Below, in pieces: positions 18,613 to 60,050 of a stretch of 64,000 nt of DNA. This DNA comes from Aurelia coerulea (Eukaryota > Cnidaria > Scyphozoa > Semaeostomeae > Ulmaridae): the NCBI GenBank assembly GCA_039566865.1, contig CM076957.1, forward strand, positions 8,007,896 to 8,071,895, in the 5' to 3' direction. The translations under genes were made by a program, and so were the position numbers. The notes under the pieces are model-generated. The model did no database searches. It was given only the letters and a program-made list of their open reading frames with translations, and had not been told where the DNA came from. The number at the start of each line of letters is the position of its first letter. Position 1 is the stretch's first letter.

Positions 18613-18645
<33 letters not shown>
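18336..18645. mobile_element. 310-bp MITE with G-tract TIRs and 8-bp TSD
   Basis: The left end is CCTGGGGGGGGGTACATAAC and the right end, as complement, is G-rich then GGTACATGACTTATGG. The flanking duplication GTGCAGAT is at 18328-18335 and 18646-18653. A C-run of about 33 bases (18613-18643) forms the right terminus. The 8-bp duplication suggests hAT or a similar superfamily. No coding capacity. Confidence 0.8.
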
Positions 18646-25505: not shown

Positions 25506-25594
25506 TATACCGTTTCCTTGGACATCCGTTATAAGTTGTCAAAGAGAATGAATCCTTCAAATCTCATTTTCAGTTTGGTGAATAGACTTCTTAC

Positions 25595-26149
25595 CTCGCC
25601 ATTATCATTTTCATCATGTAATATTCCTTTAGGCTCCATTCCGTTTTGCTTCTCTACGTCTTGAATATACTCATCGTGTGTATGAATAAGATCATTTTCA
25701 CCAAAAGTCACCGTCTTTTTCTTAGAAGGAACATCTCCTGAAATACTACTGCTGTCACTATTGTCTGATCGATAATCTCTTCCTTGTCGCCTGCTTGATA
25801 TAATTTCACTTGAATCTAGCGATTTTGTGTGGACTAAAATAGGTTTCGTTACTTCAGGGCTGGACCCTCCGCTGTAAATCGATTCATTCCCTGGTTTAAG
25901 AACACTCCTGTTGCCATGATCAGGTCTGCTTTTCCGAACGATAATAGGCGATAATGCAGATTTTATAGGCTTGTTCAATTCAGAATTCTTCAATTTTCGA
26001 TGAATCGGAGATTGCGTTGGGGGAGTGTGCAATTCCGCCTCAATTTCTTCGATTGTTGATTTAACTTTAGATTCTTTGCCGTGAAACCAGGATCCTGTTT
26101 TAGCCAGGAGCTCTTGTTTCTTTCTGCATATCACGCACAGCCAGTAAAT
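25595..26149 (-). CDS. Rim: RIM homologue, exon with end of zinc finger and linker
   Basis: The exon opens after acceptor TCTGCTTTCAG with IYWLCVICRKKQELLAKTGS followed by WFHG. This matches the final Cys pair and following helix of the RIM Rab3-binding zinc finger (vertebrate WVCNLCRKQQEILTKSGAWF). A low-complexity Ser/Lys/Pro-rich linker follows, with KKKTVTFGEND and KGILHDENDNGE before donor GAG|GTAAGA. It is 185 codons, phase 0 at both ends. Translation runs past the donor to 25529, but that part is intron. The protein would tether Rab3 vesicles at presynaptic release sites. The earlier Cys pairs of the finger must lie in an upstream exon (above 26149) that I could not find. Confidence 0.8.
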
Positions 26150-27345
26150 CTGAAAGCAGAAGATTCATTGAAATCATCTAACGAGAATTCAAGGTAGGCT
26201 ACTTCAATTTTCTATCACTTACAATAGATGAGTTAATAAAGTCACCAGTGCTTGAACAACCATACAATGGAATCAGCCAGTGTTTGAACAACCGTACTAT
26301 AGAATCAACCAACTAATCGTAAAATCCATTTGAACGATTTGTACGAACAAACTAAACTAGATTCTCTAATGAATTTGAAGAATGATCTAGACCAATTTCT
26401 TCGAATTTCTTAAAGCTGAAAGCAAGGATTACAATTGATGCCTTGTTCTTGCTCTCCCGGTGTAAACATTATTTTAATTCATTTTAGTGAAAAAATTCTT
26501 CTGAATGCACTTCAAATCAAGAAGAAGGTCTTATCTTAAAACATCATACAAGATAAGTCTCGAAAATTTCAAATTATATTAGACAAAAAACCAGCTGACA
26601 AATGATAATTTTTCGGCATGTAAAGGGAAAATGAAGCATTTAATTAGTCTTAACTTAGTTTATTGTATGTTCTTTAAGAAATGGCCTCTGGGTAGTCGTG
26701 ATTTTATGCTCCCCGGCTATCGTCCTTGTGGTGTTGTTGAGTAATTTGTATTGTCTTAGATAATTTGCCTTTGCAATAAAATTTAAAACAATTTACTTTA
26801 TATTTTCTCATCGATGTAAGTGGCCATTGTAGTTGGAACTCGGTGACATCACGTCCTTTCTAGCTATGGCAGCCAAAGAACATAATTGTAAAATTGTCAG
26901 CAGACCTTACAACTGAAAAATGCTATGAACGACTGCAATTAAATAAATACTCATTACGTTGATGCAGTAAATGTTCACATCTGAGTTGGCCTTTCCAATA
27001 AAAAAAGATTTCATGCTGCTTGATTTAATGGTTTGAAAGGGCCTTTAGGTACTTTGCTATAATTGTTATTGACGATCTATGACATCTTGATCACTTTCAG
27101 GATTACAGCTTTTTTGTGTCTCACTCAATTTTGAGGTTGTGACGTCTTCAAATCGCAAAATCGCCAACCTGAAAAACCACAAATATTTGCATACCACCAC
27201 ATGGAAGACAAAAACTATGGTCTCCTTGAAGATCGCATCTTTCTTCCCCCAGTAATTTAGGACTTGCGATGATTCAATTTTTTTCAAAATTTTTCATGAA
27301 GTTTTCAAAAAAAAAGAATAACGTCATAATTCAGAGAATACTCAC
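26150..27345. other. Probable RIM intron, no exon assigned
   Basis: The missing first half of the zinc finger was sought here on the minus strand and not seen. GGAACTCGGTGACATCA at about 26836 resembles GGAACTCACTGACAATA at about 12299, a possible dispersed repeat. Confidence 0.35.
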
Positions 27346-37530: not shown

Positions 37531-38160
37531 TCTGATGAAAACATCCAAGTTCGACTAGGGTACTTATTACATGATTAAATAGAAATAAGAAGGTCGAGAT
37601 AGTAGAAGTTATTTTAGAATGTAGAAATAGATATTCACTGAGGTAGGAAATTTAAAAAAATTCAAAGCTGATTTAGCTGTTTTCAGTCGCCATTTTGAAA
37701 AAGATTGAGAGTGAGGCTGGTTTCTAAGGGCCAAACTGGTCCAGAAGTGGTCATATTGGTCAAACAGGTCATTTTGGTTTGGAACAATGCCATAAAGCAT
37801 GAAATAAAACTTTTGCGTTAGGGATGTTGGAGTTCGTTGGAGGAGAAAAATGAGAAAATTTGAGACACACTTGATGACATTTGCAATTTGGTGCAACATA
37901 CACAAAGGTGATTGCTCTGGTCTTCAAGGAGAAAGAACTGTGCCTCGATTGCTGGTGCTAAGTTCTTGTTATGACTAGAAGTACATTGTTTTTTCAATAA
38001 AATAAAGCTCAAAATCGTTTCCTTCAGGAGTCAATTTAATCATCTTCCTCATCAGGAACAAAACGGTCATCTTTTCCAATATTGATTTGGCCATTGACCT
38101 AATTGAGCCAACAGAAATTTCAAATGTACCCTGAGATTCATTTGAAATCAGAAATGTGCT
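37531..38160. other. No gene seen
   Basis: The 98-codon minus-strand frame at 37609-37905 is not recognised. This region may be part of the element carrying the hammerhead-like motif that follows. Confidence 0.35.
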
Positions 38161-38169
38161 ATAAATATA

Positions 38170-38211
38170 TAGATTACTGATGAAGGCTTGCGCCGAAACG
38201 TTTAACGAATG
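38170..38211 (+). ncRNA. Hammerhead-ribozyme-like motif, probably degraded
   Basis: CTGATGA (38177-38183), one extra base, a 3-bp stem GGC/GCC with loop TTGC, then GAAACGTT give the core of a small type-I hammerhead. Stem III is reduced to A-U around CG, as in the copies in the satellite array. Stem I can form only about 3 bp (TTA with TAA), and the cleavage triplet would be GTT. It may be a fossil of a Penelope-like element. An (AT)n run follows at 38231-38250. Confidence 0.45.
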
Positions 38212-42963: not shown

Positions 42964-45359
42964 TGAGCGAAGGGAAAGATAAAATTTGGAGGGGTTGCCC
43001 TACAAAAAATCAATTGTTGAGAAAAAGTTTTGCCCGAGTTAATGCGGATTTCTGCCCGATTATGGCCGATTTTTGTAAATTTGTCCAACGGTTGGGGGCT
43101 ACAGCCCCCCAGCCCCCTTTCTCCTACGACTATGTTTACCCAGTAAAGCTGATATGAATCAAGAAGACGTTCCATTGTTTGATAACGTGCAGTACAATCA
43201 ATTGCCGCGAAGCAGCATAATATTCGCGCTACATGGTTTCGTAATAGATTCTGTTGGACTGTTTGTCTGTCTTTTCGTATTCAAACATTTTTGGAGATAA
43301 ATTGCAGTTATCAAATTATATCACTGCGGTTACCACAGACATGGGCAGTATGGAAAATATGATCATGATAACTTTTCGTTCGACAGCAATTTCGGGACTT
43401 TAGAGGATTCTTACATGAAGACTTTGCCTGGAAAAGTTGCTCTTGACAACAATCGTAAACATTGTGACAAAGTCTTTGTGAGTAAATACAATACGCAACA
43501 TTCCCAAACTATCGTTATTGTTGGTTATTAGTGCTAGTTATTAAGTGTTTACTAATTTCAGAATTGATAATGATCAGTAATGCATGATATACATCAAATG
43601 CGTGATGTGTAAGGAGAAATTTGCTCGATGCTTATATTGCAGCAAGCTTGGCAATAAAGCAAAAAGTTGGAATATATAAAAAAGCTTTAAAGCATAAAAA
43701 ACGATTGTTCTGGATGCTAAGAACTCCGCCCCATTGTAGATCACAATGTAAAACACATTCACTCTTCTGATTGGCTTGCTGATCAACGGAATAGGCGAAT
43801 ATCTTTTGGGCGAGCGTATATGAACAAATAAAGGACGATAACCCTGAAATTGCTACCACGCAGAATCCAACGATCTTAGACGGGAGTCTGGCTCTTCTGG
43901 AGAAACCCAGCCAGACTTACACTGGTAGTATCCCGAAGAAATGAACAACCCAAAAAATCTGGGTGGGCCAAGGCAATCCTAGGATACTCTCGAAGCAGCA
44001 ATGATATTGGCAAGCAATGCCAATCTATTTCTATTGTCACTAGCAATCACAAGTGAGAATAGAAAAAGTTTCTTTGGCCTGAAGAAAGTAAAAGCCTGAA
44101 AATTGAAGGGCTAGCTAAAAAAGAAGAGATTGAAAACTAAACTTGATCACTTGCACTAACTTAAAATTTGCTAGACTGAACTGGCAATGATGAGAAATTC
44201 CTATGGCAATACCAGTAGGCTCGGAAGTTTAACGGTATGTATAATTCCGAAGAAGCGAGGTTGAGAGCCAACGATTATGCAAAGAAACACATTGTGCTTA
44301 AAATGGATTATCAAAAATTTCTGTTAAGTACTTGTAAAGCAGATACTTATCTGTATTCTTAAAGAGACAAAATAGGGCCTATACTTATCTTTACGAAGTA
44401 ATAGCCGAGCAAACTTAATTAAAGGAATTACTGGCATCATTTGCTGGTGTGACAGTGTCATACATAGAATTACAACCACCAATGCTCTGGAACACGATCG
44501 CAACCGATTCGCATGTTGGAAACAATGTCAACAGTGCTTTTGCTTAAAGGGAATCTAAGCAAAACTAAGTGGTTCAAGCTACTCGAGGTCCAATCCTAGC
44601 CAATCAGATATCAGTATTTCTGGTTGACGCAGGTCAGTCACCCAAATATTGTGCGCCACATGTCATTGCATATGGTCTTTGCATTATTATTTTTATCAAA
44701 GGCTTATGTATGCTTTGATTCCCTTTAATATTCTTTAACATAGACGATGGCTTAGGGAAGGAAACACAAGAAGCATTTTTCGCACAGTAGAAATCCAGTT
44801 TTCAAAAACAAAGAGGGCAGCTTTAAGGATTCCTATAAGAGCATGCAGAATGCAGATAATACCAGAATGCCAGAGTGCCATATTACCAGAATGACTCGCA
44901 ACCCGACACAACTTTGCCTAGATAGCCGTGACTGAAATATTTCGCGATTAACGTTGCCTCACGTTACTTCATTCCAATGAAGAATAAAGCACTTAGGTCA
45001 GCTCAGGGTATTGATAGGAGCGTCCTCTCAAACTTTAACACATCTCAGGTACTCATTTTATAGGTTTTGTCAAGGTTAAAATTCTTCATTGGCACAGAGA
45101 AACACTATCTAAAAATATCCAATTCAAATCGAAGGTACATGCAAGCCATGAACAATGGATAGCCAAAGAAAGTATTCTGTGTCTGAGGCTTTCTTTGTTC
45201 CATTTATATATGGCTTATTTGCCATTGTACATTCATTTCATTCCAAATTAATTTACGGGAAGAAATGAGACTTTTGAAATTAGAGATGAATTATGTGTAG
45301 GAAGAGGAACTGCAACAAAACTGTGTTTAGAATTGCAGCCGCTCGGGGAACAGAAAGGA
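42964..45359. other. No gene recognised
   Basis: It contains a GC-rich hairpin GGGGGCTACAGCCCCCC at about 43094, of the type seen inside the hAT MITEs. Otherwise ordinary sequence up to the satellite array. Confidence 0.4.
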
Positions 45360-47953
45360 CAGTGATGAAAGCAAGCAGAAAGGAAGTTGTCAATGACATG
45401 ATGAAGGAGCAACAACAACAATGTTCATCTAACAATAGAGGCAGATTTAATTACGATAAGCATTACTATAAGAGCAAGCAGAACGGAGCGTGTGGCAAAT
45501 GCATGCTTGAGAAACAACAACAACAATATCAATCTAACAATAGAGACCGATTTAGTTACAATAAGAATTAATATAAGAGCAAGCAGAACGGACAGTGTGG
45601 CAAGTGCATGCTTGAGAAGCAACAACAACAATATCCATCTAACAATAGCAGCAGATTTGTTACAATAAGAATTAATATAAGAGCAAGCAGAACGGAGAGT
45701 GTGACAAGTGCATGCTTGAGAAGCAACAACAACAATATCGATCTAACAATAGCAGCAGATTTGTTACAATAAGAATTACTATAAGAGCAAGCAGAACGGA
45801 GAGTGTGACAAGTGCATGCTTGACAAGCAACAACAACAATATCGATCTAACAATAGCAGCAGATTTGTTACAATAAGAATTAATATAAGAGCAAGCAGAA
45901 CGAAGCGTGTGGCAAGTGCATGCTTGAGAAGCAACAACAATAATATCGATCTAACAATAGCAGCAGATTTGTTACAATAAGAATTACTATAAGAGCAAGC
46001 AGAACGGAGAGTGTGGCAAGTGCATGCTTGAGAAACAACAACAACAATATCGATCTAACAATAGCAGCAGATTTAGTTACAATAAGAATTAATATAAGAG
46101 CAAGCAAATCGGAGAGTGTGACAAGTGCATGCTTGAGAAACAACAACAAAAATATCGATCTAACAATAGCAGCAGATTTAGTTACAATAAGAATTAATAT
46201 AAGAGCAAACAAAACGGAGCGTGTGGCAAGTGTATGCTGGAGAAGCAACAACAACAATATCGATCTAACAATAGAGGCAGATTTAGTTACAATAAGAATT
46301 AATATAAGAGCAAGCAGAACGGAGCGTGTGGCAAGTGCATGCTTGAGAAACAACAACAAAAATATCGATCTAACAATAGAGGCAGATTTAGTTACAATAA
46401 GAATTAATATAAGAGCAAGCAGAACGGAGAGTGTGACAAGTGCATGCTGGAGAAGCAACAACAAAAATATCGATCTAACAATAGCAGCAGATTTACTTAC
46501 AATAAGAATTAATATAAGAGCAAGCAGAACGGAGAGTGTAGCAAGTGCAGACTGGAGAAGCAACAACAACAATATCGATCTAACAATAGAGGCAGATTTA
46601 GTTGCAATAAGAATTAATATAAGAGCAAACAAAACGGAGAGTGTAGCAAGTGCAGACTGGAGAAGCAACAACAACAATATCGATCTAACAATAGCAGCAG
46701 ATTTACTTACAATAAGAATTAATATAAGAGCAAGCAGAACGGAGAGTGTAGCAAGTGCAGACTGGAGAAGCAACAACAACAATATCGATCTAACAATAGA
46801 GGCAGATTTAGTTACAATAAGAATTAATATAAGAGCAAACAAAATGGAGAGTGTAGCAAGTGCAGACTGGAGAAGCAACAACAACAATATCGATCTAACA
46901 ATAGAGGCAGATTTAGTTGCAATAAGAATTGATATAAAAGCAAGCAGAACGGAGAGTGTGACAAGTGCAGACTGGAGAAGCAACAACAACAATATCGATC
47001 TAACAATAGCAGCAGATTTAGTTACAATAAGAATTACTATAAGAGCAAACAAAACGGAGAGTGTAGCAAGTGCAGACTGGAGAAGCAACAACAACAATAT
47101 CGATCTAACAATAGAGGCAGATTTACTTACAATAAGAATTAATATAAGAGCAAGCAGAACGGAGAGTGTAGCAAGTGCAGACTGGAGAAGCAACAACAAC
47201 AATATCGATCTAACAATAGAGGCAGATTTAGTTGCAATAAGAATTAATATAAGAGCAAGCAGAACGGAGAGTGTAGCAAGTGCAGACTGGAGAAGCAACA
47301 ACAACAATATCGATCTAACAATAGCAGCAGATTTACTTACAATAAGAATTAATATAAGAGCAAGCAGAACGGAGAGTGTAGCAAGTGCAGACTGGAGAAG
47401 CAACAACAACAATATCGATCTAACAATAGAGGCAGATTTAGTTACAATAAGAATTAATATAAGAGCAAACAAAATGGAGAGTGTAGCAAGTGCAGACTGG
47501 AGAAGCAACAACAACAATATCGATCTAACAATAGAGGCAGATTTAGTTGCAATAAGAATTGATATAAAAGCAAGCAGAACGGAGAGTGTGACAAGTGCAT
47601 GCTTGAGAAGCAACAACAACAATATCGATCTAACAATAGAGGCAGATTTGTTACAATATGAATTAATATAAGAGCAAGCAGAACCGAGAGTGTGACAAGT
47701 GCAGACTGGAGAAGCAACAACAACAATATCGATCTAACAATAGAGGCAGATTTAGTTGCAATAAGAATTAATATAAGAGCAAACAAAACGGAGAGTGTAG
47801 CAAGTGCAGACTGGAGAAGCAACAACAACAATATCGATCTAACAATAGAGGCAGATTTACTTACAATAAGAATTAATATAAGAGCAAGCAGAACGGAGAG
47901 TGTAGCAAGTGCAGACTGGAGAAGCAACAACAACAATATCGATCTAACAATAG
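45360..47953. repeat. 105-bp satellite array, left block
   Basis: Unit landmarks in order are GCAAGTGC, GGAGAAGCAACAACAACA, ATATCGATCTAACAATAG, GCAGATTTAGTTACAATAAG, AATTAATATAAGAGCAAGCA and GAACGGAGAGTGT. Most units are 105 bp; those with GATTTGTTAC in place of GATTTAGTTAC are 104 bp. The first units (45360-45570) are the most diverged. Because 105 is a multiple of three, long open frames run on both strands (46013-47671 plus, 45880-47622 minus); they are not taken as genes. From about 46540 on, blocks of six units repeat with a 630-bp period (compare 46838 and 47468). Confidence 0.95.
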
Positions 47954-47954
47954 C

Positions 47955-50387
47955 ATCAACCTTCTGAATTATAACTCTAGTACACCTATCACAAATTATG
48001 TTAATTTCCTTTTCTCAAAACAATTCCTACCATACATCATTCATCCATCTAGAGTATCTGCACATTCTTCTTCTCTTATTGACAATATTTTCTCAAACAT
48101 CACAGATAATGAAACCATAAGTGGCAATATTTTGACGCAAATAACAGATCATTTCCCTCAATTTTTAATTGTCAAACATGCTGGCATCACCTATAAGAAT
48201 CTGTCATATTTCCAACATGATTTTTCTCACTTCAATGAAGAAAATCTCCTAAATGATTTTGCAAACCTTGACATTTCATATTTAAATGACAGTGCTTCAG
48301 ATGTAAATGTAAAGTTCAATAGACTCCTATCCAGCCTTGATGAATTGGTCAAAACCCATGCTCCCTTGAGAAAACTTACAAAGAAAGACATAAAGTTCAG
48401 GAACAAACCATGGATAAATGGCAAGATTCAAAAAATGATGCGCATCAGAGATCAGATACTCAAAAAGCTTAAAAAGAACAACAACCAAGCTCTTATCGAT
48501 CTTTACAAAAAGTTTAGAAATCGGGTTTCGGTCTCCTTGAATGAAAGTAAGGCTAGCTACTTCTATAACTACTTTCAAAAGAACAGTAACAACATGAAAC
48601 AATTATGGTCAGGAATCAAATCAGTTATTGATGTCAAAAAATCAAGTAATATAAATGTGATAAATAAGCTTAAGGACTCAAATAGTAACATTACATCAGA
48701 TCCCGTGGTCATTGGAAACGTATTCAATAAATTCTTTGTTAATGTTTCTCATGATATCACCAAAAATATACCAAGATCCAACAAGTCCCCAGTGGATTCC
48801 ATGGGGGACAGAGTTGGAAATTCTTTTTTCATTGCCCCTTCAGTTCCCTTTGAAATATCTGATATAATATCTGCCCTAAAATCTGGAAAATCTCTTGGTC
48901 CAAACAGCATTCCCATGAAGATTTTAAAATGTCTTTCCCCATTGATCTCCTCTCCACTTTCTCAAATCATAAATGAATCATTTCAATCTGGAATATTCCC
49001 TGACAAGATGAAGTTGGCTAAAGTAATCCCACTTTTTAAGAAAGGCTGTCCACTAACAGCACCAAATTATAGACCCATTTCTCTTCTCTCTGTCTTCAGC
49101 AAAATTACAGAAAAGGTCATGTATGAACGTCTCTATAAATTCCTAGAAAAGCATGAAATCTTATATTCATTACAATTTGGTTTTCGGGCTAGCCATTCCA
49201 TTAGCCATGCACTGGTTAGTCTAACAGAAGCAATCAAAAGTTCATTAGACAATAGAAAATTTGGTTGTGGAATATTTATAGATTTGCAAAAGGCTTTCGA
49301 CACAGTGAATCATGATATTCTTTCAATGAAACTAGAACATTATGGAATTAGAGGAACTGCTCAAGATTGGTTTAAATCGTATCTTTCAGACAGGAAACAG
49401 TATGTTTCAATAAATGGATCTAATTCCAGCTATCTCAATGTTACCTGTGGGGTTCCACAGGGTTCTGTTCTTGGTCCTCTCCTCTTCTTAATTTACATTA
49501 ATGATTTACCTCTTGCATCTTCAAAACTCGCCTTTTACTTATTTGCTGATGATACTAACATCTATTATGAAGCTGAAAGTCTTGCTCAATTGCAGAATGT
49601 GGTTAACAAGGAATTGAAAAAAGTGAAAATGTGGCTTGATGTCAACAAGCTGTCACTCAATATTGATAAAACCAATTTTATAATTTTTAAGTCTCCTCAA
49701 CATTCTTCTCATGAAACTGTCAGCATCAAAATTGGAAACCTTCCTGTAAAGCAGACTTGTTATGTCAAATTTCTTGGTGTTCTTTTGGACGAAAACCTGT
49801 CATGGAAATATCACCTAACTGAGCTGTCTAAAAAACTTGCTAGGACTTGTGGTATGTTTTTCAAAGTGAGACATTTCCTACCCATCAATGTTTTGATCTG
49901 TCTTTATAATTCTTTATTTTCACCTTTCCTGCAATATGGAATTTTGGTTTGGGGTCTCACCTACGAGACATATATCAATCCAGTATTCTTGTTGCAGAAA
50001 AGAGTTGTTAAAGCAATTTCATTTGCAAATTTTACTTCACCTTCTACACCTATTTTTTCTGACTTAAAGATTTTAAAATTGCATGATCTCTTCCAACTGA
50101 AACTGCTTAGTTTTGTATATGATTGTGTGAATAGGATCTCTCCTTCTTGTTTTCATTCTTTCTTTGACTTAGTTGAATCCGTTCATCGATATGGTACACG
50201 GCAAGTCACCAAAAATGATATTTTCCTAACCCAAAAAAATACCCTGCAATATGGTATCAGGTCAGTGCGCTATTGCGGAGCTAAATGCTGGAATGACATT
50301 CCTGTGGATATAAAGAAATCACCCTCTGCTAATATTTTTCGACGAAAACTCAAAGCCTTCCTCTTTCAAAACCACTACCAAAGTTGA
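47955..50387 (+). CDS. LINE ORF2-like protein: endonuclease end plus reverse transcriptase
   Basis: The frame is open from the insertion junction, so the first Met (48132) is internal and the native start is lost. Before it, SSSLIDNIFSN and then ITDHFPQFLIV match the last motifs of the AP-like endonuclease. Counting from 48132: linker to about residue 300, FKKGCPLTAPNYRPISLLSV (about 300-320), FIDLQKAFDTVNHD (about 380, motif A), GVPQGSVLGPLLF (about 438, motif B), FADDTNIYYE with the catalytic Asp pair (about 470, motif C), VKFLGVLLDENLSWKYHL (thumb), and an end with WNDIPVDIKKSPS. No stop or frameshift interrupts it. It could still encode an active RT domain but lacks a complete endonuclease, so it is unlikely to move by itself. 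Confidence 0.9.
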   Translation: MNLLNYNSSTPITNYVNFLFSKQFLPYIIHPSRVSAHSSSLIDNIFSNITDNETISGNILTQITDHFPQFLIVKHAGITYKNLSYFQHDFSHFNEENLLNDFANLDISYLNDSASDVNVKFNRLLSSLDELVKTHAPLRKLTKKDIKFRNKPWINGKIQKMMRIRDQILKKLKKNNNQALIDLYKKFRNRVSVSLNESKASYFYNYFQKNSNNMKQLWSGIKSVIDVKKSSNINVINKLKDSNSNITSDPVVIGNVFNKFFVNVSHDITKNIPRSNKSPVDSMGDRVGNSFFIAPSVPFEISDIISALKSGKSLGPNSIPMKILKCLSPLISSPLSQIINESFQSGIFPDKMKLAKVIPLFKKGCPLTAPNYRPISLLSVFSKITEKVMYERLYKFLEKHEILYSLQFGFRASHSISHALVSLTEAIKSSLDNRKFGCGIFIDLQKAFDTVNHDILSMKLEHYGIRGTAQDWFKSYLSDRKQYVSINGSNSSYLNVTCGVPQGSVLGPLLFLIYINDLPLASSKLAFYLFADDTNIYYEAESLAQLQNVVNKELKKVKMWLDVNKLSLNIDKTNFIIFKSPQHSSHETVSIKIGNLPVKQTCYVKFLGVLLDENLSWKYHLTELSKKLARTCGMFFKVRHFLPINVLICLYNSLFSPFLQYGILVWGLTYETYINPVFLLQKRVVKAISFANFTSPSTPIFSDLKILKLHDLFQLKLLSFVYDCVNRISPSCFHSFFDLVESVHRYGTRQVTKNDIFLTQKNTLQYGIRSVRYCGAKCWNDIPVDIKKSPSANIFRRKLKAFLFQNHYQS

Positions 50388-50707
50388 TTGTAAACTTATT
50401 GATATAGAAAGTCACCATCAGCCCATAGTTTCTTTTATGCCTAAAATAATCAAATTTGTATGAGAAATTTTAGAAACGGGGGGTGCTCTCTCCTCGATTA
50501 GTTTAACTACTGAGAGAGCTCCTCCTTTAAGTAATTCCCCCCATGCAATTTATCTTATTCTTTGTTCGGTATTCGTATGTTGTATTAATTTTAGGTGCAT
50601 TATTGTTTATATTGTAGTTTAGTTAATTGTTTGTATTAATTGGTTTTGTTATGATAAATTGTATGTGGAGAATTTAAAATATGAAACTGAACTGAACTGA
50701 ACTGAAC
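50388..50707 (+). other. LINE 3' UTR
   Basis: It contains GAGAGAGCTCCTCCTTTAAG with a complementary-looking partner just upstream (GGTGCTCTCTCCTC), possibly a small hairpin recognised by the RT, then the ACTGA repeat tail. No poly-A. Confidence 0.6.
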
Positions 50708-51029
50708 TGATTTACTTACAATAAGAATTAATATAAGAGCAAGCAGAACGGAGAGTGTAGCAAGTGCAGACTGGAGAAGCAACAACAACAATATCGATCT
50801 AACAATAGAGGCAGATTTAGTTACAATAAGAATTAATATAAGAGCAAACAAAATGGAGAGTGTAGCAAGTGCAGACTGGAGAAGCAACAACAACAATATC
50901 GATCTAACAATAGAGGCAGATTTAGTTGCAATAAGAATTGATATAAAAGCAAGCAGAACGGAGAGTGTGACAAGTGCATGCTTGAGAAGCAACAACAACA
51001 ATATCGATCTAACAATAGAGGCAGATTTG

Positions 51030-52490
51030 TTACAATATGAATTAATATAAGAGCAAGCAGAACCGAGAGTGTGACAAGTGCATGCTGGAGAAGCAACAAC
51101 AAAAATATCGATCTAATAATAGCAGGAGATTTGTTACAATAAGAATTAATATAAGAGCAAGCAGAACGGAGCGTGTGGCAAGTGCATGCTTGAGAAGCAA
51201 CAACAAAAATATCGATCTAACAATAGCAGCAGATTTACTTACAATAAGAATTAATATAAGAGCAAACAAAACGGAGAGTGTAGCAAGTGCAGACTGGAGA
51301 AGCAACAACAACAATATCGATCTAACAATAGAGGCAGATTTAGTTACAATAAGAATCAATATAAGAGCAAGCAGAACGGAGAGTGTGGCAAGTGCATGCT
51401 TGAGAAACAACAACAACAATATCGATATAACAATAGAGGTAGATTTGTTACAATAAGAATTACTATAAGGGCAAGCAGAACGGAGAGTGTGACAAGTGCA
51501 TGCTGGAAAAGCAACAACAAAAATATCGATCTAACAATAGCAGCGGATTTGTTACAATAAGAATTAATATAAGAGCAAGCAGAACGGAGCGTGGGCAAGT
51601 GCATGCTTGAGAAGCAACAACAACAATATCGATCTAACAATAGAGGCAGATTTAGTTGCAATAAGAATTGATATAAGAGCAAGCAGAACGGAGAGTGTGA
51701 CAAGTGCATGCTTGAGAAGCAACAACAACAATATCGATCTAACAATAGAGGCAGATTTGTTACAATATGAATTAATATAAGAGCAAGCAGAACCGAGAGT
51801 GTGACAAGTGCATGCTGGAGAAGCAACAACAAAAATATCGATCTAATAATAGCAGGAGATTTGTTACAATAAGAATTAATATAAGAGCAAGCAGAACGGA
51901 GCGTGTGGCAAGTGCATGCTTGAGAAGCAACAACAAAAATATCGATCTAACAATAGCAGCAGATTTACTTACAATAAGAATTAATATAAGAGCAAACAAA
52001 ACGGAGAGTGTAGCAAGTGCAGACTGGAGAAGCAACAACAACAATATCGATCTAACAATAGAGGCAGATTTAGTTACAATAAGAATTAATATAAGAGCAA
52101 GCAGAACGGAGAGTGTGGCAAGTGCATGCTTGAGAAACAACAACAACAATATCGATATAACAATAGAGGCAGATTTGTTACAATAAGAATTACTATAAGG
52201 GCAAGCAGAACGGAGAGTGTGACAAGTGCATGCTGGAAAAGCAACAACAAAAATATCGATCTAACAATAGCAGCGGATTTGTTACAATAAGAATTAATAT
52301 AAGAGCAAGCAGAACGGAGCGTGGGCAAGTGCATGCTTGAGAAGCAACAACAACAATATCGATCTAACAATAGAGGCAGATTTAGTTGCAATAAGAATTG
52401 ATATAAGAGCAAGCAGAATGGAGAGTGTGACAAGTGCATGCTTGAGAAGCAACAACAACAATATCGATCTAACAATAGAGGCAGATTTAG
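51030..52490. repeat. Higher-order repeat of seven units, period 730 bp
   Basis: 51030-51760 and 51760-52490 are almost identical, including private markers CTAATAATAGCAGGAG (51111 and 51841), ATCGATATAACAATAG (51421 and 52151) and GAGCGTGGGCAAG (51588 and 52318). Parts of the same seven-unit order recur at 53390-53900, 55640-56190 and 59300-59940. Confidence 0.85.
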
Positions 52491-52693
52491 TTACAATAAG
52501 AAATAATATAAAAGCAATTAGAACTGAGATTGTAGCAAGTGTATGCTGGAGAAGCAACAACAACAATATCGATCTAACAATAGAGGCAGATTTAGTTACA
52601 ATAAGAATTAATATAAGAGCAAGCAGAACGGAGAGTGTAGCAAGTGCATGCTTGAGAAGCAACAACAACAATATCGATCTAATAATATAGGCA

Positions 52694-52955
52694 AAAATTG
52701 ACAAAACAACAACAACAACAGCAAGAAGGACGAAACTTAAACGTTTTATGAAGAACCGGAAGGACCTTATATGGACATAAATTCTTGTAATTAAATTGTT
52801 TGACTATAAATATAGGTTGACTTCTTAAAATTATCCAGTTGCTCTGAAGATGCCCTTGTGGGCGAAACGTCAGCACTGGAAAAGAAAAAGCGCAAAAGAC
52901 CAAACAGATGCCTGTTTCTTTGAGTAGTTAGGCCCTCTTCTAACCGTACACTATA
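52694..52955 (+). mobile_element. 262-bp hammerhead-bearing insertion, copy 1
   Basis: Non-satellite sequence from AAAATTGACAAAAC to CCGTACACTATA splits a unit. It is flanked by a 14-bp duplication of unit sequence (TAACAATAGAGGCA, one or two changes on the left in this copy). The size and target duplication fit a short retroposed fragment of a Penelope-like element. Its ribozyme is annotated separately. Confidence 0.8.
52835..52879 (+). ncRNA. Small type-I hammerhead ribozyme, copy 1
   Basis: Stem I is CCAGTTGCT paired with AGCACTGG (8 bp with one bulged T). The core CTGAAGA is followed by one extra base, stem II GCCC/GGGC with loop TTGT, then GAAACGTC. Stem III is just A-U around CG. Predicted cleavage is after the C of GTC at 52871. 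Such variants, associated with Penelope-like elements, are known to cleave best as dimers. All conserved core bases are present. Confidence 0.75.
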
Positions 52956-54225
52956 TAACAATAGAGGCAGATTTAGTTACAATAAGAATTAATATAAGAG
53001 CAAGCAAAACGGAGAGTGTGGCAAGTGCAGACTGGAGAAGCAACAACAAAAATATCGATCTAACAATAGAGGCAGATTTGTTACAATAAGAATTACTATA
53101 AGAGCAAGCAGAACGGAGAGTGTGACAAGTGCCTGCTTGAGAAACAACAACAAAAATATCGATCTAACAATAGCAGCAGATTTAGTTACAATAAGAATTA
53201 ATATAAGAGCAAACAAAACGGAGAGTGCAGCAACTTCAAACTGGAGAAACAACAACAACAATATCGATCTAACAATAGCAGCAGATTTAGTTACAATAAG
53301 AATTAATATAAGAGCAAACAAAACGGAGAGTGTGGCAAGTGCATGCTTGAGAAGCAACAACAAAAATATCGATCTAACAATAGCAGCAGATTTACTTACA
53401 ATAAGAATTAATATAAGAGCAAACAAAACGGAGAGTGTAGCAAGTGCAGACTGGAGAAGCAACAACAACAATATCGATCTAACAATAGAGGCAGATTTAG
53501 TTACAATAAGAATTAATATAAGAGCAAGCAGAACGGAGAGTGTGGCAAGTGCATGCTTGAGAAACAACAACAACAATATCGATATAACAATAGAGGCAGA
53601 TTTGTTACAATAAGAATTACTATAAGGGCAAGCAGAACGGAGAGTGTGACAAGTGCATGCTGGAAAAGCAACAACAAAAATATCGATCTAACAATAGCAG
53701 CGGAATTGTTACAATAAGAATTAATATAAGAGCAAGCAGAACGGAGCGTGGGCAAGTGCATGCTTGAGAAGCAACAACAACAATATCGATCTAACAATAG
53801 AGGCAGATTTAGTTGCAATAAGAATTGATATAAGAGCAAGCAGAACGGAGAGTGTGACAAGTGCATGCTTGAGAAGCAACAACAACAATATCGATCTAAC
53901 AATAGAGGCAGATTTAGTTACAATAAGAAATAATATAAAAGCAATTAGAACTGAGATTGTAGCAAGTGTATGCTGGAGAAGCAACAACAACAATATCGAT
54001 CTAACAATAGAGGCAGATTTAGTTACAATAAGAATTCATATAAGAGCAAGCAGAACTGAGATTGTAGCAAGTGCATGCTGAAGAAGCAACAACAACAACA
54101 TCGATCTAACAATAGAGGCATATTTAGTTACAATAAGAATTAATATAAGAGCAAGCAGAACGGAGAGTGTAGCAAGTGCATGCTTGAGAAGCAACAACAA
54201 CAATATCGATCTAACAATAGAGGCA

Positions 54226-54487
54226 AAAATTGACAAAACAACAACAACAACAGCAAGAAGGACGAAACTTAAACGTTTTATGAAGAACCGGAAGGACCTT
54301 ATATGGACATAAATTCTTGTAATTAAATTGTTTGACTATAAATATAGGTTGACTTCTTAAAATTATCCAGTTGCTCTGAAGATGCCCTTGTGGGCGAAAC
54401 GTCAGCACTGGAAAAGAAAAAGCGCAAAAGACCAAACAGATGCCTGTTTCTTTGAGTAGTTAGGACCTCTTCTAACCGTACACTATG
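54226..54487 (+). mobile_element. 262-bp hammerhead-bearing insertion, copy 2
   Basis: Same length and ends as copy 1, with the flanking duplication TAACAATAGAGGCA at 54212-54225 and TAACAACAGAGGCA at 54488-54501. The identical insertion point within the unit shows that it was copied with the array rather than inserted anew. Confidence 0.8.
54367..54411 (+). ncRNA. Small type-I hammerhead ribozyme, copy 2
   Basis: Identical over all 45 bases to copy 1. Predicted cleavage is after 54403. Confidence 0.75.
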
Positions 54488-56804
54488 TAACAACAGAGGC
54501 AGATTTAGTTACAATAAGAATTAATATAAGAGCAAGCAGAACGGAGAGTGTGGCAAGTGCAGACTGGAGAAGCAACAACAAAAATATCGATCTAACAATA
54601 GAGGCAGATTTGTTACAATAAGAATTACTATAAGAGCAAGCAGAACGGAGAGTGTGACAAGTGCCTGCTTGAGAAACAACAACAAAAATATCGATCTAAC
54701 AATAGCAGCAGATTTAGTTACAATAAGAATTAATATAAGAGCAAACAAAACGGAGAGTGTAGCAACTTCAAACTGGAGAAACAACAACAACAATATCGAT
54801 CTAACTATAGCAGCAGATTTAGTTACAATAAGAATTAATATAAGAGCAAACAAAACGGAGAGTGTGGCAAGTGCATGCTTGAGAAGCAACAACAACAATA
54901 TCGATCTAACAATAGAGGCAGATTTAGTTACAATAAGAATTAATATAAGAGTAGCAGAACGGAGAGTGTGGCAAGTGCATGCTTGAGAAGCAACAACAAC
55001 AATATCGATCTAACAATAGAGGCAGATTTAGTTACAATAAGAATTAATATAAGAGCAAGCAGAACGGAGAGTGTAGCAAGTGCAGACTGGAGAAGCAACA
55101 ACAACAATATCGATCTAACAATAGAGGCAGATTTAGTTACAATAAGAATTAATATAAGAGCAAGCAGAACAGAGAGTGTGGCAAGTGCATGCTTGAGAAG
55201 CAACAACAACAATATCGATCTAACAATAGAGGCAGATTTAGTTACAATAAGAATCAATATAAGAGCAAGCAGAACGGAGAGTGTAGCAAGTGCAGACTGG
55301 AGAAGCAACAACAACAATATCGATCTAACAATAGAGGCAGATTTAGTTACAATAAGAATTAATATAAGAGCAAGCAGAACGGAGAGTGTGGCAAGTGCAT
55401 GCTGGAGAAGCAACAACAAAAATATCGATCTAACAATAGAGGCAGATTTAGTTACAATAAGAATTAATATAAGAGCAAGCATAACGGAGAGTGTGACAAG
55501 TGCATGCTGGAGAAGCAAAAACAAAAATATCGATCTAACAATAGCAGCAGATTTACTTACAATAAGAATTAATATAAGAGCAAGCAGAACAGAGAGTGTG
55601 GCAAGTGCATGCTTGAGAAGCAACAACAGCAATATCGATCTAACAATAGAGGCAGATTTGTTACAATATGAATTAATATAAGAGCAAGCAGAACCGAGAG
55701 TGTGACAAGTGCATGCTGGAGAAGCAACAACAAAAATATCGATCTAATAATAGCAGGAGATTTGTTACAATAAGAATTAATATAAGAGCAAGCAGAACGG
55801 AGCGTGTGGCAAGTGCATGCTTGAGAAGCAACAACAAAAATATCGATCTAACAATAGCAGCAGATTTACTTACAATAAGAATTAACATAAGAGCAAACAA
55901 AACGGAGAATGTAGCAAGTGCAGACTGGAGAAACAACAACAACAATATCGATCTAACAATAGAGGCAGATTTAGTTACAATAAGAATTAATATAAGAGCA
56001 AGCAGAACGGAGAGTGTGGCAAGTGCATGCTTGAGAAACAACAACAACAATATCGATATAACAATAGAGGCAGATTTGTTACAATAAGAATTACTATAAG
56101 GGCAAGCAGAACGGAGAGTGTGACAAGTGCATGCTGGAAAAGCAACAACAAAAATATCGATCTAACAATAGCAGCGGATTTGTTACAATAAGAATTAATA
56201 TAAGAGCAAGCATAACGGAGAGTGTAGCAAGTGCAGACTGGAGAAGCAACAACAAAAATATCGATCTAACAATAGCAGCAGATTTGTTACAATAAGAATT
56301 AATATAAGAGCAAGCAGAACGGAGAGTGTGGCAAGTGCATGCTTGAGAAACAACAACAAAAATATCGATCTAACAATAGAGACAGATTTAGTTGCAATAA
56401 GAATTGATATAAGAGCAAGCAGAACGGAGAGTGTGGCAAGTGCATGCTTGAGAAGCAACAACAACAATATCGATCTAACAATAGAGGCAGATTTAGTTAC
56501 AATAAGAATTAATATAAGAGCAAGCAGAACTGAGATTGTAGCAAGTGTATGCTGGAGAAGCAACAACAACAATATCGATCTAACAATAGAGGCAGATTTA
56601 GTTACAATAAGAATTCATATAAGAGCAAGCAGAACTGAGATTGTAGCAAGTGCATGCTGAAGAAGCAACATCAACAACATCGATCTAACAATAGAGGCAG
56701 ATTTAGTTACAATAAGAATTAATATAAGAGCAAGCAGAACGGAGAGTGTAGCAAGTGCATGCTTGAGAAGCAACAACAACAATATCGATCTAACAATAGA
56801 GGCA

Positions 56805-57066
56805 AAAATTGACAAAACAACAACAACAACAGCAAGAAGGACGAAACTTAAACGTTTTATGAAGAACCGGAAGGACCTTATATGGACATAAATTCTTGTA
56901 ATTAAATTGTTTGACTATAAATATAGGTTGACTTCTTAAAATTATCCAGTTGCTCTGAAGATGCCCTAGTGGGCGAAACGTCAGCACTAGAAAAGAAAAA
57001 GCGCAAAAGACCAAACAGATGCCTGTTTCTTTGAGTAGTTAGGCCCTCTTCTAACCGTACACTATA
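56805..57066 (+). mobile_element. 262-bp hammerhead-bearing insertion, copy 3
   Basis: Same ends, length and 14-bp flanking duplication (56791-56804 and 57067-57080, both TAACAATAGAGGCA). A few substitutions separate it from copies 1 and 2. Confidence 0.8.
56946..56990 (+). ncRNA. Small type-I hammerhead ribozyme, copy 3
   Basis: Core unchanged. The stem II loop is TAGT instead of TTGT, and one outer stem I pair is lost (CACTAG instead of CACTGG), so it may be weaker. Predicted cleavage is after 56982. Confidence 0.7.
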
Positions 57067-60050
57067 TAACAATAGAGGCAGATTTAGTTACAATAAGAAT
57101 TAATATAAGAGCAAGCAAAACGGAGAGTGTGGCAAGTGCAGACTGGAGAAGCAACAACAAAAATATCGATCTAACAATAGAGGCAGATTTGTTAAAATAA
57201 GAATTACTATAAGAGAAAGCAGAACGGAGAGTGTGACAAGTGCCTGCTTGAGAAACAACAACAAAAATATCGATCTAACAATAGCAGCAGATTTAGTTAC
57301 AATAAGAATTAATATAAGAGCAAACAAAACGGAGAGTGTAGCAACTTCAAACTGGAGAAGCAACAACAACAATATCGATCTAACAATAGAGGCAGATTTA
57401 GTTACAATAAGAATTAATATAAGAGCAAGCAGAACGGAGAGTGTAGCAAGTGCAGACTGGAGAAGCAACAACAACAATATCGATCTAACAATAGAGGCAG
57501 ATTTAGTTACAATAAGAATTAATATAAGAGCAAGCAGAACGGAGAGTGTAGCAAGTGCAGACTGGAGAAGCAACAACAACAATATCGATCTAACAATAGA
57601 GGCAGATTTAGTTACAATAAGAATTAGTATAAGAGCAAGCAGAACGGAGAGTGTGGCAAGTGCATGCTGGAGAAGCAACAACAACAATATCGATCTAACA
57701 ATAGAGGCAGATTTAGTTACAATAAGAATTAATATAAGAGTAGCAGAACGGAGAGTGTGGCAAGTGCATGCTTGAGAAACAACAACAAAAATATCGATCT
57801 AACAATAGCAGCAGGTTTAGTTACAATAAGAATTAATATAAGAGCAAGCAGAACGGAGAGTGTAGCAAGTGCAGACTGGAGAAGCAACAACAACAATATT
57901 GATCTAACAATAGAGGCAGATTTAGTTACAATAAGAATTAATATAAGAGTAGCAGAACGGAGAGTGTGGCAAGTGCATGCTTGAGAAACAACAACAAAAA
58001 TATCGATCTAACAATAGCAGCAGGTTTAGTTACAATAAGAATTAATATAAGAGCAAGCAGAACGGAGAGTGTAGCAAGTGCAGACTGGAGAAGCAACAAC
58101 AACAATATCGATCTAACAATAGAGGCAGATTTAGTTACAATAAGAATTAATATAAGAGCAAGCAGAACGGAGAGTGTGACAAGTGCATGCTGGAGAAGCA
58201 ACAACAAAAATATCGATCTAACAATAGCAGCAGATTTGTTACAATAAGAATTAATATAAGAGCAAGCAGAACGGAGAGTGTGACAAGTGCCTGCTTGAGA
58301 AACAACAACAAAAATATCGATCTAACAATAGCAGCAGATTTGTTACAATAAGAATTAATATAAAAGCAAGCATAACGGAGAGTGTAGCAAGTGCAGACTG
58401 GAGAAGCAACAACAAAAATATCGATCTAACAATAGCAGCAGATTTGTTACAATAAGAATTAATATAAGAGCAAGCATAACGGAGAGTGTGGCAAGTGCAT
58501 GCCTGAGAAACAACAACAAAAATATCGATCTAACAATAGCAGCAGATTTACTTACAATAAGAATTGATATAAGAGCAAACAAAACGGAGAGTGTGGCAAG
58601 TGCAGGCTGGAGAAGCAACAACAAAAATATCGATCTAACAATAGAGGCAGATTTAGTTACAATAAGAATTAATATAAGAGCAAGCAGAACGGAGAGTGTA
58701 GCAAGTGCAGACTGGAGAAGCAACAACAACAATATCGATCTAACAATAGAGGCAGATTTAGTTACAATAAGAATTAATATAAGAGTAGCAGAACGGAGAG
58801 TGTGGCAAGTGCATGCTTGAGAAGCAACAACAACAATATCGATCTAACAATAGAGGCAGATTTAATTACGATAAGAATTAATATAAGAGCAAACAAAACG
58901 GAGAGTGTAGCAAGTGCAGACTGGAGAAGCAACAACAAAAATATCGATCTAACAATAGAGGCAGATTTAGTTACAATAAGAATTAATATAAGAGCAAGCA
59001 GAACGGAGAGTGTAGCAAGTGCAGACTGGAGAAGCAACAACAACAATATCGATCTAACAATAGAGGCAGATTTAGTTACAATAAGAATTGATATAAGAGC
59101 AAGCAGAACGGAGAGTGTGGCAAGTGTATGCTGAAGAAGCAACAACAACAATGTCGATATAACAATAGCGGCAGATTTAATTACGATAAGAATTACTATA
59201 AGAGCAAGCAGAACGGAGAGTGTGGCAAGTGCATGCTGGAGAAGCAACAACAACAATATCGATCTAACAATAGAGGCAGATTTGTTACAATAAGAATTAA
59301 TATAAGAGCAAGCAGAACCGAGAGTGTGACAAGTGCATGCTGGAGAAGCAACAACAAAAATATCGATCTAATAATAGCAGCAGATTTGTTACAATAAGAA
59401 TTAATATAAGAGCAAGCAGAACGGAGCGTGTGGCAAGTGCATGCTTGAGAAGCAACAACAAAAATATCGATCTAACAATAGCAGCAGATTTACTTACAAT
59501 AAGAATTAATATAAGAGCAAACAAAACGGAGAGTGTAGCAAGTGCAGACTGGAGAAGCAACAACAACAATATCGATCTAACAATAGAGGCAGATTTAGTT
59601 ACAATAAGAATTAATATAAGAGCAAGCAGAACGGAGAGTGTGGCAAGTGCATGCTTGAGAAACAACAACAACAATATCGATATAACAATAGAGGCAGATT
59701 TGTTACAATAAGAATTACTATAAGGGCAAGCAGAACGGAGAGTGTGACAAGTGCATGCTGGAAAAGCAACAACAAAAATATCGATCTAACAATAGCAGCG
59801 GATTTGTTACAATAAGAATTAATATAAGAGCAAGCAGAACGGAGCGTGGGCAAGTGCATGCTTGAGAAGCAACAACAACAATATCGATCTAACAATAGAG
59901 GCAGATTTAGTTGCAATAAGAATTGATATAAGAGCAAGCAGAACGGAGAGCGTGGCAAGTGCACGCTTGAGAAACAACAACAACAATATCCATCTGACAA
60001 TAGAGGCAGATTTAGTTGCTATAAAAGCAAGCAGAACGGAGAGTGTAGCA

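Follow-up and report, generated by a model that had tools for sequence, protein, structure and literature searches.

A satellite array of 105-bp units in the genome of the scyphozoan Aurelia coerulea is interrupted by three nearly identical segments of 262 bp, each of which carries a hammerhead-like ribozyme motif. The array lies in a stretch of 64,000 nucleotides (GenBank assembly GCA_039566865.1, contig CM076957.1, positions 8,007,896 to 8,071,895 of the forward strand), which is referred to as the window and to which all coordinates apply. We consider it likely that an end fragment of a Penelope-like retroelement (PLE) was inserted once into a satellite unit, that it was subsequently amplified to three copies together with its surroundings, and that the hammerhead-like motif is a passenger in this process.

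A shared insertion site in the 105-bp array

Tandem Repeats Finder (TRF) places the array in two blocks. The left block (45370..47953; period 105, 24.7 copies) is free of the insert, and the right block (50709..60024) contains all three inserts and is reported in four rows (50709-52693, 52956-54225, 54488-56804 and 57067-60024). The summed TRF copy counts amount to approximately 106 units. The inserts occupy positions 52694..52955, 54226..54487 and 56805..57066 on the plus strand, which bears out the segments listed in an earlier note on this DNA, and they differ from each other by 2, 2 and 4 mismatches. Their GC content is low (37%), and each insert is present as a single copy between 105-bp units, with no head-to-tail tandem monomers. 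When insert 1 was compared by BLAST with the window, the matches listed comprised the three inserts, followed by short matches only, the best of which covered 26 bp (E 0.013). A search of a phage collection with the 262 bp gave no match.

All three inserts break the 105-bp unit at one identical point, and each is bordered on the plus strand by two 14-mers that represent a target site duplication, one of the features looked for in a PLE insertion. For insert 1, the left copy (52680..52693) is TAATAATATAGGCA and the right copy (52956..52969) is TAACAATAGAGGCA, with 2 mismatches between them. For insert 2, the left copy (54212..54225) is TAACAATAGAGGCA and the right copy (54488..54501) is TAACAACAGAGGCA, which differ by 1 mismatch, while insert 3 is flanked by TAACAATAGAGGCA on the left (56791..56804) and by an exact second copy, TAACAATAGAGGCA, on the right (57067..57080). 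The earlier note had described one common breakpoint with the same 14-bp duplication; the common breakpoint applies to all copies, but the duplication is exact only in copy 3.

These borders also bear on the idea that the 262 bp have long belonged to a higher-order satellite unit as a fixed component, in which case the 14-bp duplication would have arisen by recombination and not by retroposition. Within the window, the 262 bp are indeed confined to this array. However, the unit is interrupted precisely, the duplication is found at both ends of the insert and is exact in copy 3, and the insert has its own promoter-like and hammerhead-like signature. In addition, the TRF stretches 45370-47953, 50709-52693 and 57067-60024 consist of array units without the 262 bp. 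An ancient higher-order unit is thus decidedly improbable.

The relationship between the three copies was analysed by comparing their flanks outward from the inserts in blocks of 105 columns, with the anchor columns excluded. The background for this comparison is given by 91 monomers, which have a mean pairwise identity of 91.8% (standard deviation 3.2) and of which 4.1% of the pairs reach 98%. On the right side, copies 1 and 2 are 98.1, 100, 99.0 and 98.1% identical over four consecutive blocks and 89.5% in the next one. Copies 1 and 3 show 100, 98.1 and 98.1% over three blocks before identity falls to 91.4%, and copies 2 and 3 show 98.1, 98.1 and 99.0%, likewise followed by 91.4%. On the left side, copies 2 and 3 are 99.0, 99.0, 96.2 and 99.0% identical, with 93.3% in the next block, and copies 1 and 2 are 97.1% identical in the first block, beyond which identity drops; an offset of one 105-bp unit restores it to 99.6% over the following 500 bases.

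Because the copies share the same site, the same duplication and flanks that stand out against the monomer background, a single insertion followed by duplication within the array is favoured, as the earlier note had suggested when it proposed one retroposition and subsequent array amplification. Three independent insertions were also considered and are ruled out by the shared flanks, since the copies have the same base and the same neighbouring units in common. One comparison speaks against this history: on the left side, the flanks of copies 1 and 3 are 98.1% identical in the first block, but no more than 91.4% in the one beyond it, and a unit shift that would restore their identity was looked for and not found.

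The co-amplification of a transposon with a tandem repeat is already in print, and the present locus is a new example of it. In rye, tandem repeats were co-amplified with nearby transposons (PMC4857426), and transposon sequence was multiplied along with a tandem array, as it is here. In contrast to the Aurelia locus, the excerpted text of that study concerns plant subtelomeric blocks and mentions no ribozymes. Literature searches aimed at a Penelope pseudo-long terminal repeat (pLTR) that was co-amplified in a satellite retrieved no such report among their best matches, which is not proof of absence.

The hammerhead-like motif and the anatomy of the insert

Each insert contains a hammerhead-like motif of 45 nt on the plus strand (52835..52879, 54367..54411 and 56946..56990), for which cuts are predicted after positions 52871, 54403 and 56982, respectively. 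In copies 1 and 2, the motif is identical and reads CCAGUUGCU CUGAAGA U GCCC UUGU GGGC GAA ACGU C AGCACUGG. Stem I consists of 4 bp, a bulged U and a further 4 bp, and stem II (GCCC/GGGC) has 4 bp and a loop of 4 nt. Helix III is reduced to AC/GU within a self-complementary ACGU and has no loop. The core letters CUGAAGA, GAAA and GUC are present in all three copies and match the consensus C3 U4 G5 A6 N7 G8 A9 ... G12 A13 A14 A15.1 ... U16.1 H17. An unpaired extra U is, however, located between A9 and stem II. In copy 3, one loop II base and one stem I base are changed, the latter breaking a stem I pair, and the energy of the best fold changes from -17.1 to -12.0 kcal/mol. Thus, the description of a 45-nt hammerhead with an intact core, as given in the earlier note, is correct for the motif and its core letters, but intactness needs to be qualified in view of the extra U, the loopless helix III and the stem I pair lost in copy 3.

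As a whole, the insert looks like the control end, i.e., the pLTR, of a PLE, and its putative origin is deduced from this resemblance. In insert 1, a TATA box (TATAAATA, 52805..52812, plus strand) is followed after approximately 30 nt by an initiator-like CCAGTT at 52835, which is also where the motif begins. An ATG (52850..52852, plus strand) arises inside the motif where A9 and the extra U meet the first G of stem II. It would correspond to the start of the element's open reading frame (ORF), and the distance from its A to the insert end is 106 nt. The motif itself corresponds to a minimal type I hammerhead without helix III, a feature expected of a pLTR, albeit with the caveat of the extra U.

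Comparable arrangements are described for other PLEs. One Penelope pLTR of Adineta has a length of 218 bp, to which a 31-bp tail may be added; it includes the initial 12 codons, or 22 when the tail is present, and its TATA box and initiator-like sequence are 20 bp apart (PMC3846280), so that a TATA box and an initiator-like site are common to this pLTR and to the inserts. In the Anolis element PAc, the hammerhead is located at the ORF start, with the AUG at the start of stem II (PMC11167929), which would also hold for the inserts. According to two reviews, PLE hammerheads usually lack helix III (PMC6155905, PMC7761336), in line with the statement in the earlier note that hammerheads poor in stem III accompany Penelope-like elements, and PLE copies are described as ending 36-118 nt into the ORF (PMC11167929, PMC3846280). 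Short target duplications are shared between the described PAc and Adineta elements and the present inserts, and copies that end shortly inside the ORF would also be common to them if the ATG of the inserts is an ORF start. The Penelope-like source that the earlier note had assumed is supported by the TATA box, the initiator-like site, the ATG-bearing minimal hammerhead and the 3' end located 106 nt into the frame. In view of these arrangements, the simplest interpretation of the extra U is that it is the cost of having an AUG at that position.

Such an origin would imply that a PLE deposited one short copy, made up of the pLTR and ~106 nt from the beginning of its ORF, and that the insertion produced a 14-bp target duplication. 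By unequal exchange, the insert-bearing stretch would then have been duplicated together with neighbouring units, resulting in three inserts. In the parent element, transcription from the TATA box would begin right at the motif. This minimal type I hammerhead-like sequence, which would also hold the AUG of the element, would be positioned at the 5' end and at the translation start. Within the array, the TATA/initiator-like promoter of each insert would point along the plus strand, and the inserts would most likely be passengers.

Several points weigh against the assignment to a PLE. In copies 1 and 2, the frame that opens at the ATG is 25 codons long before it meets a stop, which is a TAG in insert 1. 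Copy 3 has two additional in-frame stop codons, and its frame is already closed at the third codon. The role of the ATG as an ORF start is accordingly putative. Neither a Penelope reverse transcriptase nor GIY-YIG was seen in the insert, which with 262 bp is too short to carry both. A Pfam scan of six ORFs of the window, to which the search for Penelope proteins was limited, found RVT_1 in three, a below-cut-off FYVE_2 match in one and nothing in two. The early frame closure, the missing reverse transcriptase and endonuclease and the capture in a satellite set the inserts apart from the described PAc and Adineta elements. Furthermore, the duplication of 14 bp is longer than the 8, 9 and 10 bp given for Adineta, where several solo pLTRs are described as having none (PMC3846280), and the existence of the latter slightly lowers our confidence in the Penelope reading. 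The predicted cut is located 22 nt into the frame, versus 26 nt in PAc (PMC11167929), and the placement of the PAc ATG exactly at A9-U-G is an interpretation of the text of that paper and is not based on a figure.

The layout of the insert is also relevant to the possibility that it represents the monomer of an animal retrozyme, a non-autonomous retroelement whose mobile form is a small RNA circle cut by ribozymes, and not a Penelope pLTR. Animal non-LTR retrozymes (PMC7229834) are similar to the inserts in length, with 262 bp falling within the range of 170-400 nt, in their low GC content, in their type I layout and in having target duplications of more than 4 bp. Unlike the inserts, they are arranged in tandem and contain canonical hammerheads, with a stable helix III in most of the invertebrates reported. 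A review likewise states that, among the type I hammerheads of invertebrate genomes, the majority have a stable helix III and are active as monomers (PMC7761336). The inserts are single copies and not tandem dimers or multimers, and their motif has neither a helix III loop nor a loop I, as stem I contains one bulged U only. A canonical retrozyme hammerhead with helix III and contacts between loops I and II was therefore not found in the insert, and the extra core U is a further deviation. Retrozyme identity is unlikely and was rejected on the basis of helix III and the tandem layout.

Whether the resemblance to a hammerhead could be due to chance was evaluated with descriptors of different stringency. 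The letter pattern CTGANGANGNCN{3,10}GNCGAAACGT matches the window four times (the three inserts and position 38177) and is absent from 100 shuffles. A looser descriptor, which all three copies pass, is met in 12 of 150 simulated windows, which would be in favour of chance, and the bare motif alone is therefore weak evidence. In contrast, a stricter descriptor, with minimum lengths of 4 bp for stem II and of 8 bp for stem I, in which one bulge is allowed, is passed by copies 1 and 2, but not by copy 3, and it produced 13 matches in 4472 first-order simulated 64-kb windows. In a set of 86 viral and prokaryote loci to which the letter patterns apply, stem II has at least 4 bp in 14 and stem I has at least 3 bp in 4 loci; none of the 86 has both stems with at least 4 bp, as seen in the three copies here, and the best stem total is 7 versus 8 here. 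The ATG placement and the promoter spacing, moreover, agree with those of known PLEs. A purely accidental resemblance is therefore highly improbable.

The match at position 38177 belongs to a second motif on the plus strand (38160-38201; CTGATGA-A-GGC-TTGC-GCC-GAAACGT), which is preceded by TATAAATA 17 nt upstream. This motif likewise has one extra base before stem II, its stems contain 3 and 3 bp, and it fails both hammerhead scans. The ORF downstream of it has four short relatives, which come with no Pfam domains or names.

Possible cleavage of satellite RNA

The predicted cut coordinates of the earlier note are confirmed by the position of the C of GTC at 52871, 54403 and 56982, with spacings of 1532 and 2579 nt. 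The note had proposed that the inserts are working ribozymes, which cut plus-strand satellite RNA into pieces of ~1.53 and 2.58 kb and which are helped by the presence of several copies per transcript. This model is in agreement with the complete set of CUGANGA, GAAA and NUH letters, with the TATA box in every insert and with the self-complementary stem III half ACGU, as needed for a dimer. According to a review, self-cleavage in the form of dimers may also occur when minimal PLE hammerheads are arranged in tandem (PMC7761336).

The extra core U, the loopless helix III and the damaged copy 3 argue against this model. In the best fold obtained with ViennaRNA, the extra U is paired with G12, and a catalytic residue would thus be tied up. 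A viroid hammerhead with an extra core nucleotide reportedly provides a precedent, with its extra base in the identical place. The core-adjacent positions 1.1-2.1 and 15.1-16.1 are A-U pairs in the insert motif, but the extra U separates A9 from stem II. A published filter rejects mispairs at the core-adjacent positions 10.1-11.1, 1.1-2.1 and 15.1-16.1, and active natural core variants are also described in the same source (PMC3088659). Compared to shuffled sequences, folding of the 45-nt motif has a z-score of -2.33, which changes to -1.39 for the 121 nt from the motif to the insert end and to 0.2 for the whole insert, which is not better than shuffled. The earlier note had named a covariance-model search as a check. 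Rfam gave no match at gathering thresholds in the whole window. In the 461 bp that surround copy 1 (52600-53060), six matches were obtained with a limit of E=10, none of them to a hammerhead family; this negative result is weak evidence against a hammerhead, as the search was run without a minimal PLE hammerhead as positive control.

The proposed benefit of several copies was addressed by calculating the energy of a double hammerhead in cis, for which two copies were joined by a linker of 30 nt in place of 1.5 kb. The double hammerhead has -30.6 kcal/mol with stem III and -30.9 kcal/mol without it, versus -34.2 kcal/mol for two separate hairpins. Because it is weaker than the two hairpins even with this short linker, the calculation does not support the view that several copies per transcript favour cleavage in cis. 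In PAc, the hammerhead cut only in the presence of protein and was inactive without it, hammerhead mutants were unaffected in insertion in vitro, and RNA-seq reads that begin or end at the cut site were not found (PMC11167929). Cleavage of the satellite RNA is thus possible, but it would probably be inefficient without the protein of the element, and the model of working ribozymes is doubtful at best. A more elaborate scenario is that the captured pLTR made part of the satellite both promoter-driven and ribozyme-trimmed. The TATA box of one insert would then start a plus-strand transcript, which would be trimmed by the hammerhead of the next insert with Penelope protein from elsewhere, and this would set the ends of RNAs of ~1.53 and 2.58 kb. 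We regard this scenario as very unlikely.

The surrounding array and the significance of the locus

The 105-bp array is also interrupted at 47954-50708 by a long interspersed nuclear element (LINE) that encodes an RVT_1 domain (frame 47877-50387) and terminates in (AACTG)n. Inspection of its junctions by eye revealed no obvious target duplication, and a search with the LINE protein found 2364 relatives. The array itself is open for 575 codons on the plus strand (45944-47671) and for 617 codons on the minus strand (45880-47733). It is open on both strands because 105 is a multiple of three, and as the frame is shifted by shorter units, with 29 of 99 anchor spacings being 104 bp, these long open frames look non-coding. 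At the left edge, an open frame on the plus strand (45290-45565) with a CGKC motif extends across the array border and includes the initial repeat units, which gives the impression that the satellite grew from an exon-like stretch, and a homologue search with this frame as a putative exon found none. Inverted repeats were searched at each array edge on its own, which revealed two pairs at the left edge (26 and 23 nt) and a single one at the right edge (12 nt); a larger inverted-repeat transposon with the array as its core was considered in part, by these within-edge scans alone. Outside of the array, the window contains a run of 30 C (18614-18643) and an ORF on the minus strand (25532-26164) with a weak match to the FYVE-type zinc finger PF02318 (E 0.0069, below the curated cut-off), which may be part of a host gene.

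Hammerhead motifs that are repeated in tandem DNA are also found in satellites of newts, cave crickets and schistosomes, in which the satellite monomer itself contains the hammerhead. In contrast to these satellites, the motif of the Aurelia array rides in three inserts among ~106 units.

The locus is a clean record of an apparent Penelope-type end fragment that entered a satellite and multiplied along with it, and it points to a possible route by which satellites could gain promoters and ribozyme-like motifs. The motif of copies 1 and 2 is still able to pair, whereas in copy 3 a stem I pair is lost and two further stop codons have appeared in the frame, and the three inserts thereby also offer a small natural test of selection on such motifs. 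If it is true that satellite RNAs end at the GTC sites, the processing of satellite RNA would be tied to the ribozymes of retroelements.

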